DNA from: Desulfurellales bacterium
Lineage (GTDB): Bacteria; Campylobacterota_A; Desulfurellia; Desulfurellales; Hippeaceae
DNA length: 37,755 nucleotides
Assembly: GCA_027064065.1 (NCBI GenBank)
Contig: JAMOQJ010000084.1
Span: 1 to 37,755 of the forward strand
Direction: 5' to 3'
This document shows, one piece after another, positions 30,008 to 36,681 of the stretch. The position numbers and the translations under genes are program-made. The notes under the pieces are model-generated. The model did no database searches, was not told where the DNA came from, and saw only the letters and a list, made by a program, of their open reading frames with translations. Each line of letters begins with the position of its first letter. The first letter of the stretch is position 1.

Positions 30008-30038
30008 AGCGTATGTATTTTATTAAGAGGTGTCGTAC

Positions 30039-31160
30039 ATGAATTTTCACAGCAGCGCTATTGTGCATCTTGGTAATTTTCATAATAACTTTAAATCCAT
30101 ATCCGAGTTTTTAGGCGGAAACGTAAGTATAATACCTGTAATAAAAGCCGACGGATACGGACATGGTATGATAAGAATAGCAAGGGAACTTCAAACATAC
30201 GGCAATGTTGCGTATTTGGGTGTAGCCCATATAAAAGAAGGCGTTATTTTAAGAAAAAACGGAATAAAACAACCTATCTTGGCAATGAGCTGCCTTGACT
30301 CTTTCGATGTTGACATGATGGACGAATTTAATATAACACCGGTCGTTCACAGTTTTTATCTGCTGAAGAAGGTTATAGATTATGCCAAATCTTACAACAA
30401 AAGAATAAAGGTGCATCTTAAATTTGATACAGGCATGGCAAGATTAGGTATAAGGAAAGAGGATATAGAAGAATCTATCGCTCTATGCAAAAAGGAAAAA
30501 GACTATATAGAGCTCGACGGTCTTATGAGTCATTTTAGCGATTCCGAAAGCAATAAAGAGTGGACTCTTAAACAAAACTCACTATTTAAAAATATAGTAG
30601 ATTTTGTAGAAAATGAAGGATTCAACCCTAAGTACAAGCATATCGCAAACTCTGGAGCAATACTACAATTTAAAGAAACACACTATAACTGCGTAAGGCC
30701 TGGCTTGATACTTTACGGTTATACGCCTTCTTGCAATCTAAAAGGAATAATAGACATACAACCTGTTTTAGAGATAAAATCTCAGCTTATTAGCATACAT
30801 TCTTTAAAAAAAGGAGAAGGCATAAGTTACGGAAGAACATTTATCGCTCCCTATGATATGGTCGTGGGCGTTGTGGCGTTTGGATATGCCGACGGACTCT
30901 TTAGAAACCTATCCAATAAACTGGAATGCTTAATAAACGGTAAGCGATGCAAAAGCGTTGGAACGATTTGTATGGATATGTTTATGTGCGATATTACAGA
31001 TATAGAAGCAAGCATATCAGACGAAGCAATCATAATAGGCAAAGATAAAGAAGAAGAAATTACAATAGACGATTTGGCAAGGGAAAGTAAAACCATAAAT
31101 TATGAGATACTCACAAATATAGGTAAGAGTATCAGAGTAAATAGAGTGTATATGGATTAA
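30039..31160 (+). CDS. alr: alanine racemase
   Basis: Alr is the PLP enzyme that makes D-alanine for peptidoglycan. The 373-aa protein has the PLP lysine K36 in PVIKADGYGHG, the FDTGMARLG and GLMSHFSDSE barrel segments, and the second catalytic residue Tyr in GISYGRTF. A C-terminal beta domain contains SVGTICMDMFMCDIT. The start is ATG 30039, with GAGG 8 nt upstream. A GTG three codons earlier overlaps that site. It heads an operon with the Mla-type lipid transport genes, 3 bp apart. Confidence 0.96.
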   Translation: MNFHSSAIVHLGNFHNNFKSISEFLGGNVSIIPVIKADGYGHGMIRIARELQTYGNVAYLGVAHIKEGVILRKNGIKQPILAMSCLDSFDVDMMDEFNITPVVHSFYLLKKVIDYAKSYNKRIKVHLKFDTGMARLGIRKEDIEESIALCKKEKDYIELDGLMSHFSDSESNKEWTLKQNSLFKNIVDFVENEGFNPKYKHIANSGAILQFKETHYNCVRPGLILYGYTPSCNLKGIIDIQPVLEIKSQLISIHSLKKGEGISYGRTFIAPYDMVVGVVAFGYADGLFRNLSNKLECLINGKRCKSVGTICMDMFMCDITDIEASISDEAIIIGKDKEEEITIDDLARESKTINYEILTNIGKSIRVNRVYMD

Positions 31161-31935: not shown

Positions 31936-32679
31936 ATGATTGAAGTAAAAGATTTAAAAAAGAGTTTCGGTACTCAAACCGTTTTAAACGGTGTAAATTT
32001 TGAAATAGAAGATAAAAAGATAACAGTTATATTAGGTAAAAGCGGTGTAGGGAAAAGTGTATTGCTAAGCAATATAATAGGCTTAACCATACCTGATTCA
32101 GGCAGTATATTCTATAAAGATAAAGATATAACAAAATTAAACTTAAAAGAATTGAATAAAATAAGAAAGAACTTTGGTGTCCTATTTCAAGATGCAGCGC
32201 TATTTGATTCGTTAAATGTCTTTGAAAACATAGCATTTCCTTTAATTGAACACAAAACCGTAAAAAACAAAAAAGAGATAAAACAGCGCGTGGCAGATAT
32301 GCTAAAGCTCGTCGGCTTAAGTGATATTGAACATAAAATGCCATCTGAGCTATCGGGTGGAATGAGAAAAAGGGTTGCATTGGCAAGAGCTATCATTACA
32401 AATCCTGAAGTTGTCTTCTTCGATGAACCAACAACAGGGCTCGACCCGGTTTCTGCGATGTCCATAGCAAATCTAATTAAAGATATGCAAGAAAAATTAT
32501 CTACAACCTGTTTTATAATAAGCCACGATTTATCTCTAACATTTAACATTGCCCATAAAATAGGACTTTTAGATAGCGGGAAAATTGTAGATTTCGGCGA
32601 TAGAAACCATTTTTTAAATTCCGATAACAATATAGTAAAAAATTTTATAAACGCTTATAGTTTGGGAGATACGATATGA
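31936..32679 (+). CDS. mlaF: MlaF-family ABC transporter ATPase
   Basis: Cytoplasmic ATPase of the Mla-type lipid transporter, 247 aa. It has Walker A GKSGVGKS, Q-loop LFQDAALFDSL, signature LSGGMRKRVALARAI, Walker B VVFFDEPTTGLDP and the switch His in IISHDL. GGMRKR is typical of MlaF/Ttg2A ATPases. There is no Shine-Dalgarno, so translation is probably coupled to mlaE. Its stop overlaps the mlaD start (ATGA). Confidence 0.96.
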   Translation: MIEVKDLKKSFGTQTVLNGVNFEIEDKKITVILGKSGVGKSVLLSNIIGLTIPDSGSIFYKDKDITKLNLKELNKIRKNFGVLFQDAALFDSLNVFENIAFPLIEHKTVKNKKEIKQRVADMLKLVGLSDIEHKMPSELSGGMRKRVALARAIITNPEVVFFDEPTTGLDPVSAMSIANLIKDMQEKLSTTCFIISHDLSLTFNIAHKIGLLDSGKIVDFGDRNHFLNSDNNIVKNFINAYSLGDTI

Positions 32680-33941
32680 GAAATAAGAATTTTGAAGTTA
32701 TAGTTGGTATGTTTGTAGTTTTGGTTTTGATTTTATTGGGATGGCTTACAACTCAAATGGGTAAATTCAATATCAAGTCAAAGCCTGTTTACACAATCTA
32801 TGCTCCATTTGATGACATTGCAGGTCTTGACGTAAACACAAAGATTAAGGTAGCAGGCGTTGATATAGGCGTTATAAAAGATATAAAATTAGAAAACGGA
32901 AAGGCTATTGTTACGCTCGCCATTTACGATAAATACAAGATTCCAAAAGACTCTTTGGCTTTAATAAGAAGCAAAAGCATGCTTGGTGATAAGTTCTTAG
33001 AGATAAAATTTGGGCACTCCAAACAATTCTTATCAGATGGTGATTTCTTGACACACACAGAATCTGCAACGGATGTAGGAGCTTTAATCAACAACATAAA
33101 CAAAATCTTTAACAATCAACAAAAGGATATACAACTTGCTGTTGAAAATGCAAGATTATCCATGGAAAAATTAAATAAAACGCTTGATAATCTATATTTT
33201 ATGACCTACAGAATGAAACAAGGTAAAGGTACAATAGGAAAATTCATAAGCGATGACGGACTTTATAAAAACTTAAATTCCACATCAGGAAATTTAAGCG
33301 ATATTAGCTCTAAAATAAAAAACGGAGAAGGAACGCTTGGGAAACTGGTCAACGATGATGGAGTTTATAACAATTTGAACGACACGCTCAAATACATAAA
33401 GAAATACCTAACAAAAGCAAACAGAATCCTCATCAATGTTTCGGCAAGAACCCAATACGGTTTTAGAGACCAAGAATCCAAAGGTAAGATATATGCTGAT
33501 ATATATACAATGCCGGATAAATTCTACAGAATAGGTATAACAGACGAAACAGACCATTCCGAAGAAAATAAAAAAGACGACGACAATAAGATGAGAATTA
33601 CAGCTTTGATGGGTAAAAAATATTATGATTTTACGCTAAAAGGTGGAATTATAGAATCAACATTTGGTTTAGGCGTTGACTATAGCATGCTTGACAACAA
33701 ATTAATGTTTAGTGTAGATGCTTTCGATTTTAATCACGACAACGATATAAGAGACAAAAATGCCCAAGTAAGAGCTGAGCTTGCTTATACGTTACTTAGA
33801 CATTTCAGTGTATTCGGCGGCGTAGATGAGATTTTAAACTCAAAAACTCGTTCAGCTTACATTGGAGCAGGTATGGAATTTTCAAACGACGATTTAAAAT
33901 ATTTTATGGACAAAGCACCTACGGGAGCATTTAGCAAGTAA
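32676..33941 (+). CDS. mlaD: MlaD/MCE protein with a long C-terminal beta-rich domain
   Basis: Substrate-binding component of the Mla-type transporter, 421 aa. It has an N-terminal membrane anchor (about 8-27), one MCE domain (about 37-115, with DDIAGLDVNTKIKVAGVDIG and GDKFLEIKFG), a helical region (about 120-250) with two GxxGKxxxDxGxYxNL repeats, and a beta-rich C-terminus (about 255-420). The C-terminal strands alternate polar and hydrophobic residues, with IESTFGLGVDYSML and RHFSVFGGVDEI like outer-membrane barrels. Typical MlaD is about 180 aa, so this is a long form. GGGAG precedes the ATG. It overlaps the convergent mqnA end by 11 bp. Confidence 0.9.
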   Translation: MRNKNFEVIVGMFVVLVLILLGWLTTQMGKFNIKSKPVYTIYAPFDDIAGLDVNTKIKVAGVDIGVIKDIKLENGKAIVTLAIYDKYKIPKDSLALIRSKSMLGDKFLEIKFGHSKQFLSDGDFLTHTESATDVGALINNINKIFNNQQKDIQLAVENARLSMEKLNKTLDNLYFMTYRMKQGKGTIGKFISDDGLYKNLNSTSGNLSDISSKIKNGEGTLGKLVNDDGVYNNLNDTLKYIKKYLTKANRILINVSARTQYGFRDQESKGKIYADIYTMPDKFYRIGITDETDHSEENKKDDDNKMRITALMGKKYYDFTLKGGIIESTFGLGVDYSMLDNKLMFSVDAFDFNHDNDIRDKNAQVRAELAYTLLRHFSVFGGVDEILNSKTRSAYIGAGMEFSNDDLKYFMDKAPTGAFSK

Positions 33942-35886: not shown

Positions 35887-36681
35887 TTATTTTTTAGTTA
35901 AAAGTTTATACACATCTTGAGGTGTCTTATTTAGCTGTTCGGCTATGGACTTTATTGTAGTATCTTGGTCTACGTTTTTTGCACCATTATTTTTTAGTTT
36001 CTCAATGCTCTTTCTTAAATCTATCTGAACAATAGCACATAGCTCTTTTAGTGTTTTTCTGCCCAAAGACGATATAATGATGTTGTTATCTGTTTTTATT
36101 ATATCGTATATTTCTTTAGGTGTCTTGTTGTTGTTTTTTGCTATTTCTTTCAATGTTTCAGCTTCATCTGTTATCTTTATGCCATGTTTTTGTAGTTTAT
36201 TTATTGCCGTTTGCAGATTTATATCTAGTTTCTTACAAAAAGACTTAAGCGATGATTCTTCGGCATGTCCATAGGGAGGCTCTCCATATAGTTTAGTCCA
36301 ATGCCCTTTTATATTGTTTTCAAAATCTAAATACGCTTTAAACGGCTGAATAGTATATATGCTCCCAATAAGAAACAGCACATTCAACACAACAGCTACT
36401 ACGACATCTTTCTTTGTAAAAGATATTTTTTTATTTTTATTTTTCAAATATGCAACAATCGGCTTCCAATTAAGATATATATGCAATACGCCAAAGACAA
36501 GAAACAATACCATAAAGGTCGTATGTATATTTCCATATTGCGTTTTTGTTAAGCCCAACAATTTCCAATCACTCCAATATGCAACCCTTCCTTGCGGAAC
36601 TATAAACAGCACTATGCCTGTAAACGACATTATAATAAACGACAAAAATAAGCTAAGCGATGTTAGACGCCTAAGTTTCAT
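35887..36681 (-). CDS. DUF4405 membrane protein with tandem helical repeats
   Basis: A 264-aa protein. The N-terminal 110 residues hold three membrane helices in the DUF4405 pattern, with histidines in NIHTTFMVLFLVFGVLHIYLNW that could ligate heme. The C-terminal half consists of two related units of about 60 residues (SLKSFCKKLDINLQTAINKL with TLKEIAKNNNKTPKEIYDII, and TLKELCAIVQIDLRKSIEKL with TIKSIAEQLNKTPQDVYKLL). The function is unknown. The fold suggests a cytochrome-like membrane anchor with soluble binding modules. AAGGAG lies 7 nt before the ATG. It is divergent from the lipoprotein gene at the right edge. Confidence 0.82.
   Translation of the reverse strand: MKLRRLTSLSLFLSFIIMSFTGIVLFIVPQGRVAYWSDWKLLGLTKTQYGNIHTTFMVLFLVFGVLHIYLNWKPIVAYLKNKNKKISFTKKDVVVAVVLNVLFLIGSIYTIQPFKAYLDFENNIKGHWTKLYGEPPYGHAEESSLKSFCKKLDINLQTAINKLQKHGIKITDEAETLKEIAKNNNKTPKEIYDIIKTDNNIIISSLGRKTLKELCAIVQIDLRKSIEKLKNNGAKNVDQDTTIKSIAEQLNKTPQDVYKLLTKK

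Follow-up and report, generated by a model that had tools for sequence, protein, structure and literature searches.

MCE systems most similar to the locus

The closest described counterpart of the gene examined here is the MlaD protein of Veillonella parvula (Grasekamp et al. 2023, PMC10665443). As set out in the main text of that report, this protein of 419 amino acids carries a transmembrane (TM) helix, an MCE domain, approximately 150 helical residues and ten antiparallel strands, and its host possesses MlaEFD only, with no MlaA or MlaC. When fractionated, the MCE part was recovered with the inner membrane and the isolated barrel with the outer membrane, and a model of the protein reaches about 23.5 nm. 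Barrels were predicted for about 10% of MlaD sequences (103 of them), and the bridge was called ancestral. The same text judges the V. parvula barrel too narrow for a phospholipid and names anchoring as a possible role, assigns retrograde transport to MlaEFD, and proposes TamB as the partner working in the opposite direction.

The idea of a one-piece, transenvelope MlaD is therefore already published (PMC10665443), and the protein described below fits what is reported for V. parvula. Judged by that description, the two proteins share the order of TM helix, MCE domain, helical region and ten-stranded barrel, are of nearly equal length (419 versus 421 amino acids), and occur with mlaE and mlaF in organisms for which MlaA and MlaC are not found. 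They differ in that the present protein belongs to another phylum, has a linker of 120 residues rather than about 150 helical residues, carries two GxGTxGKL repeats, and comes from a phylum in whose genomes we did not find TamB. Our literature search uncovered no paper linking MlaD with Desulfurella.

Other MCE systems are less similar. The MlaFEDB complex of Escherichia coli has an MCE domain, MlaE and MlaF in common with our locus, but its MlaD is a barrel-less protein of 183 amino acids that relies on a relay through MlaC and MlaA, whereas neither of these was found in the genome studied here and the operon includes no recognizable MlaB gene among its ORFs. PqiB and LetB (YebT) are also MCE proteins thought to span the periplasm; each of their chains has more than one MCE ring and is not known to carry an outer-membrane barrel, unlike the present protein with its one MCE domain and predicted barrel. 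Mycobacterial Mce1 (PDB 8fed) offers the precedent of a helical tunnel beyond the MCE ring, and is the top Foldseek row for our full-length model (E 9.5e-12, with TM-scores of only 0.27 and 0.34). However, Mce1 is a hetero-hexamer, and each of its chains is described as contributing one strand to a shared six-stranded barrel (PMC10665443), whereas each chain of the protein presented herein is predicted to form its own ten-stranded barrel.

Gene context and domain architecture

The window, by which we mean the whole stretch of 37,755 nucleotides that was analysed, derives from a Desulfurellales bacterium (GenBank assembly GCA_027064065.1, contig JAMOQJ010000084.1). Its long mlaD gene and the features discussed below are collected in Table 1.

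Table 1. Positions in the window of the mlaD gene, its two upstream partners and the parts of the encoded protein
Feature	Position	Strand	Basis
mlaE, inner-membrane permease, 256 aa	31164..31934	+	Pfam MlaE E 3.5e-80; TIGR00056 270.1 bits (cut-off 212.2)
mlaF, ABC ATPase, 247 aa	31936..32679	+	Pfam ABC_tran E 2e-36
Long mlaD with predicted barrel	32676..33941	+	421-aa ORF, ATG start, Pfam MlaD
N-terminal helix, probable inner-membrane anchor, residues 4-29	32685..32762	+	AlphaFold2 helix; hydrophobic by eye
MCE (MlaD) domain, residues 39-113	32790..33014	+	Pfam PF02470, 66.9 bits (cut-off 25.1), E 1.9e-18
Predicted helical linker, residues 131-251	33066..33428	+	AlphaFold2 helices, pLDDT < 50 at 133-250
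Junction of 60-codon in-frame deletion, after residue 149	33122..33123	+	DNA and protein alignment with L004 (same genus)
Upstream copy of GxGTxGKL repeat, residues 183-200	33222..33275	+	In 18/81 distinct relatives, families f1 and f2
Barrel-proximal GxGTxGKL motif, residues 217-234	33324..33377	+	In 81/81 distinct relatives
Predicted 10-stranded beta barrel, residues 252-403	33429..33884	+	AlphaFold2, structural matches, alternation
Last-strand YIGAGMEF, presumed BAM-type beta-signal, residues 395-402	33858..33881	+	Pattern in 81/81 relatives
Post-barrel tail with predicted helix, residues 404-421	33885..33938	+	Helix 404 to 413; D406 invariant, 81/81

The genes are arranged in the order alr-mlaE-mlaF-mlaD, with alr at positions 30030-31160, a 4-base overlap between mlaF and mlaD, and mlaD in the terminal position, followed by a convergent gene for menaquinone biosynthesis (PF02621). 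The top NCBIfam score of mlaF is for MlaF (PRK11831), although its 188.7 bits fall below the cut-off of 441. Within the same phylum, mlaF lies 5′ of mlaD in all 23 loci fetched (L004-L026) and mlaE does so in 20 of them, and the order including alr recurs in each of four named records that have long flanking sequence (L033-L036). This arrangement does not hold everywhere: in the phylum represented by genome G034, 18 of 30 fetched loci showed mlaF, and the stretch fetched for the other 12 yielded neither mlaE nor mlaF.

The nearest named relatives are metagenome assemblies assigned to Desulfurellales and Desulfurellaceae (NCBI class Desulfurellia). A plasmid search with the MlaD query returned 20 records, all with coverage below 80% of the query, and the matches listed (for 10 of the 20 records) span residues 1-137 only. 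Elsewhere in the window, a gene on the minus strand (35887-36681) encodes a DUF4405 membrane domain followed by two stretches of about 50 residues that appear similar by eye.

The preliminary description of this DNA had noted one MCE domain in the encoded protein, and Pfam indeed gives a single match to PF02470 over the whole chain. Structures of the E. coli MlaD ectodomain are among the matches to this domain (target TM-score 0.85-0.91), while the model for E. coli-type MlaD equivalogs (TIGR04430) is narrowly missed at 129 versus 135 bits. When the full family profile was compared with solved structures, its 23 rows were all MCE proteins apart from two chains that are designed or coiled, and no matched stretch extended into the barrel. 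Chain I of PDB entry 13hr, an Mce/MlaD-domain chain of 312 amino acids in an entry of eight chains, matches positions 1-200 of the profile.

A full-length AlphaFold2 model was built from 27 sequences, one of which (L009) is incomplete, after nine rows corresponding to repeat fetches, fragments and barrel-less proteins had been omitted. With a mean pLDDT of 60.5, it places helices within residues 134-246 of the low-confidence linker and ten strands after residue 251. Residues 236-421 folded alone, using 51 of 89 alignment rows once near-identical ones were removed, give a more confident model (mean pLDDT 83.7, pTM 0.75), in which ten strands are followed by a short C-terminal helix. The top Foldseek match of this domain is 8uzl, a designed transmembrane barrel of ten strands (E 3.4e-5). 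In VIA-align, 8uzl (rmsd 2.4 across 133 residues) and the outer-membrane protease (omptin) Pla share first place at Z 15.3, ahead of OpcA and Legionella porin I, each at Z 14.8. The barrel-like, beta-rich C-terminus of the preliminary description thus reappears in the structure prediction, and the matches to closed barrels suggest that the predicted barrel is itself closed.

A candidate bridge between the two membranes

We consider it likely that the gene encodes a transenvelope MlaD of the Veillonella type that carries lipids between the membranes without MlaC or MlaA. A single chain running from inner to outer membrane in place of the MlaD-MlaC-MlaA relay had been suggested in the preliminary description, and as a prediction the suggestion gains support from the barrel model and from the lack of MlaA and MlaC matches in 25 genomes. 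The features that carry this reading are the domain order, the predicted barrel fold, the last-strand signal, the neighbouring mlaE and mlaF genes, and the absence of detectable MlaA and MlaC.

By analogy with homologous systems and with the account given for V. parvula (PMC10665443), the bridge could be organized as follows. The N-terminal helix and MCE domain, presumably hexameric, would sit on the inner-membrane ABC transporter formed by MlaE and MlaF. Helices from the linkers of six chains might then form a hydrophobic conduit across the periplasm, although such a tunnel is only a proposal given the pLDDT values below 50 in the linker. At the end of each chain, a small barrel of ten strands would be inserted into the outer membrane by BAM. 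Glycerophospholipids would probably travel along the bridge, most likely from the outer to the inner membrane, and with a direct connection of this kind MlaC and MlaA would not be needed. Several results detailed below and above run against the bridge reading, namely the resemblance of the barrel to soluble ones, the published judgement that the V. parvula barrel is too narrow for a phospholipid and the prediction of barrels in only about 10% of MlaD sequences (PMC10665443), the missing TamB matches in all 25 genomes of the phylum, the score below the TIGR04430 cut-off, the shortest linker among 81 relatives, the loci in the phylum of G034 at which mlaE and mlaF were not detected, an MlaC match in genome G038, and a second MCE system in the genome to which the window belongs.

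Another quite possible arrangement, although not the one we favour, is that the barrel acts solely as an outer-membrane anchor by which the inner-membrane complex is held or docked, with lipids gaining access to the tunnel either from the inner leaflet or through some other protein, and none passing through the barrel itself. Each chain is modelled with one barrel of ten strands, and the V. parvula barrel was judged too narrow for a phospholipid in the main text describing it (PMC10665443). The GxGTxGKL motif that precedes the barrel is, moreover, retained as judged by eye in the barrel-less relatives L031 and L037. However, glycines assigned to the inward phase of the strands (G324, G331, G333, G382 and G397) are invariant or nearly so, and the hairpin at residues 319-336 is conserved. 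These features suggest that the barrel does more than anchor, while constraints on folding might also account for them.

Distribution of Mla components and other lipid transport genes

The preliminary description had pointed to mlaA and mlaC as the genes to look for elsewhere in the genome; profile searches found neither there. The same searches gave no match to MlaA (PF04333) or MlaC (PF05494) in any of 25 genomes of the phylum, the present one included. This genome is 97% complete, and completeness reaches 90% or more in 16 of the 25. E. coli and Caulobacter, among 14 control genomes, were positive in both searches. All 25 genomes encode a match to the MlaD protein of the window, and the search for MCE domains finds 24 of them, because the match in the remaining genome (G015) consists of a C-terminal fragment located where a contig ends.

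Two further observations concern individual mlaD genes. The gene of genome G009 (L009) contains internal stops in its N-terminal part, and is either a pseudogene or the product of a sequencing fault. A further barrel-type MlaD paralogue of 523 amino acids is encoded at G017:C52:11-1564.

Two of 16 genomes sampled outside the phylum (G029 and G032) have MlaA, and their MlaD matches lie only in frames of 128 and 162 amino acids. Also outside the phylum, G038 combines an MlaC match with a barrel-bearing MlaD and no MlaA match, so the exclusion between MlaC and the barrel form is not absolute. The family profile matches 96 of 101 genomes in the phylum of G034, from which only the best 30 loci were fetched, and 30 of 30 in that of G035, with not all matches covering the barrel. 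To the published claim (PMC10665443), our survey adds 25 genomes of one phylum, every one with a match to the protein and none with detectable MlaA or MlaC. This addition supports the view that a direct bridge, rather than a shuttle, is a common solution.

The genome holds a second MCE operon (L002, contig C96, 138-2835), which encodes MlaE, an ATPase, a barrel-less MCE protein of 286 amino acids and a putative lipoprotein with a weak match to PF03886 (18.8 bits versus a cut-off of 26). The candidate bridge and this second system may therefore share the work. LolA is present.

Transport through the bridge could also run from the inner to the outer membrane, or the cargo could be something other than phospholipid, both of which we regard as unlikely. 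TamB (PF04357) matched none of the 25 genomes of the phylum, compared with 6 of 14 controls, and no AsmA (PF05170) match was found in the present genome, which leaves room for another exporter. However, AsmA-like exporters may escape these profiles. AsmA matches occur in 9 of the 25 genomes, with 3 scoring above the cut-off, and in 2 of the 14 controls. In addition, MlaEFD is assigned retrograde transport in the V. parvula study (PMC10665443).

A conserved linker motif and a shortened spacer

The family was examined through 81 distinct barrel-bearing relatives, which remained from 100 profile hits after the 89 rows that extend through the barrel were retained and repeat fetches removed. As these relatives were picked by a profile match through the barrel, conservation of the barrel is partly a result of selection.

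Two repeats had been noted in the linker from the outset, and both are present, with a spacing of 34 residues. When the linker (residues 141-250) was compared with itself, the best match reached 71 for a length of 18 residues and 90 for a length of 30, whereas the highest values among 1000 shuffles were 44 and 47, respectively. The similarity therefore extends across some 30 residues and is not limited to 18. Shuffles of the whole protein (300) reached maxima of 43 and 48 for the two lengths. The second repeat is universal: in 81 of 81 relatives its distance to the first strand is exactly 35 residues, and G217 and G219 are invariant. At 0.85 bits in 12-residue windows, this motif and the barrel hairpin (0.86) are jointly the most conserved segments of the protein, compared with 1.19 for the best MCE stretch. 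With windows of 18 residues, the motif (1.10) is second to the hairpin (0.98) and remains ahead of the best MCE stretch (1.39).

The first repeat, in contrast, is confined to two families (f1 and f2) of the same phylum and is absent from six loci of families f3 and f4, so the tandem arrangement looks like a clade-specific duplication of the GxGTxGKL motif. By eye, the barrel-less MCE protein L031 holds approximately four copies of a GxGTxGK-type motif, and copy number therefore varies. The NCBIfam model for Leptospira Mce matches the linker alone (E 3.4e-13, below the cut-off of the model), and a comparison of the linker profile with solved structures returned only T-cell-receptor rows (E 0.17-0.27). 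We found no published description of the motif in the literature searched, which included the main text of PMC10665443. It might serve to seal or gate the tunnel on the outer-membrane side, and a conserved motif at a fixed distance before the barrel provides a testable handle. The modest new points of this study are the fixed position of this motif, its clade-specific duplication and the shortened linker.

No other among the 81 relatives has a linker as short as the 120 residues counted here from residue 130 to 250; the next has 146, the median is 195 and the longest reaches 211. Alignment with genome G001 of the same genus reveals that the protein has undergone a private in-frame deletion of 60 codons, whose junction displays by eye only an AAAA microhomology. 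As a helix rises by 0.15 nm per residue, the lost codons are predicted to shorten the bridge by up to about 9 nm. The envelope of this organism may be thinner, or the linker may not be one straight helix, or the deletion may be tolerated, or the assembly may be at fault.

A rather doubtful proposal, which we put forward tentatively, is that the bridge is built from modules. One of these, invariable and belonging to the outer membrane, would comprise the motif (GxGTxGKLxxDxxxY), the spacing of exactly 35 residues, the barrel of ten strands and the tail with D406. It would be combined with a spacer that shortens or lengthens in evolution as helical units are lost or gained, and whose length tracks the width of the periplasm. 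The motif would then act as a gasket or gate at the junction between tunnel and outer membrane. If this proposal is true, the envelope of the organism would be up to about 9 nm thinner than that of its congener. A natural shortening by 60 codons within one genus offers a handle on how bridge length relates to periplasm width.

We judge it improbable that the deletion has instead left a broken or slack bridge, too short to span the periplasm and either decaying or acting differently, or that it reflects an assembly error. This reading draws on the extreme shortness of the linker and on the private nature of the loss. However, the deletion is in frame with microhomology of only four bases, which we consider hard to create by misassembly, and the conserved motif, the predicted barrel and the last-strand signal are all intact. 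Relative to G001, the pN/pS ratio is 0.17 for the whole protein and 0.16 for the barrel, values that reflect long-term constraint and, because synonymous sites are saturated, say nothing about constraint since the deletion. Furthermore, the V. parvula model attains its reported reach with only about 150 helical residues (PMC10665443).

Predicted placement of the barrel in the outer membrane

Lower in the VIA-align ranking (Z 11.4-12.5) are BFA1 (12.5), a DUF3598 protein (12.1), Rv2717c (12.0) and nitrobindins (11.4-11.7, with Arabidopsis nitrobindin at 11.7), all of which we take to be soluble barrels. Their presence among the matches means that the fold alone does not decide whether the domain enters a membrane. 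Alternation, the last strand and the asymmetry of turns and loops, as read from the sequence and the predicted strand ends, speak for a membrane barrel. The hydrophobic alternation of the strands is 3.30, compared with 1.49 +/- 0.34 for shuffles within strands, and none of 5000 shuffles reaches the observed value. Mean hydrophobicities of -0.99 for the inside and 2.04 for the outside accompany this result and are not independent evidence, as the phase was itself chosen by hydrophobicity. The domain has both its ends on the near side, and the predicted turns there have 2, 2, 4 and 3 residues, while far-side loops have 4, 11, 2, 13 and 8.

The pattern [YFM]xGx[GAS]hx[FL], which we take to be a BAM-type beta-signal, ends 19 residues before the C-terminus and is present in 81 of 81 relatives, a count that stands without a shuffled control for a pattern fixed after the alignment had been viewed. 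A looser version was dropped in favour of this position-fixed one after it matched 958 of 1780 shuffled tails.

With these features in mind, it is very improbable that the C-terminal domain is a soluble, nitrobindin-like periplasmic barrel of ten strands that binds lipids, since transmembrane barrels rank above the presumed soluble ones at Z 11.4-12.5, the alternation and the last-strand signal are as just described, and the isolated V. parvula barrel is reported to fractionate with the outer membrane (PMC10665443).

Assignment of the domain to a known Pfam barrel family was considered and rejected, as its only match is to BBP2_2 at E 0.034, short of the cut-off. The barrel profile likewise had no sequence matches to solved structures at E values up to 1. 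Ten of 51 relatives touch OMP_b-brl, with a best E of 0.00019. The genome also encodes a BamA/Omp85 protein (Omp85 E 3.4e-61).
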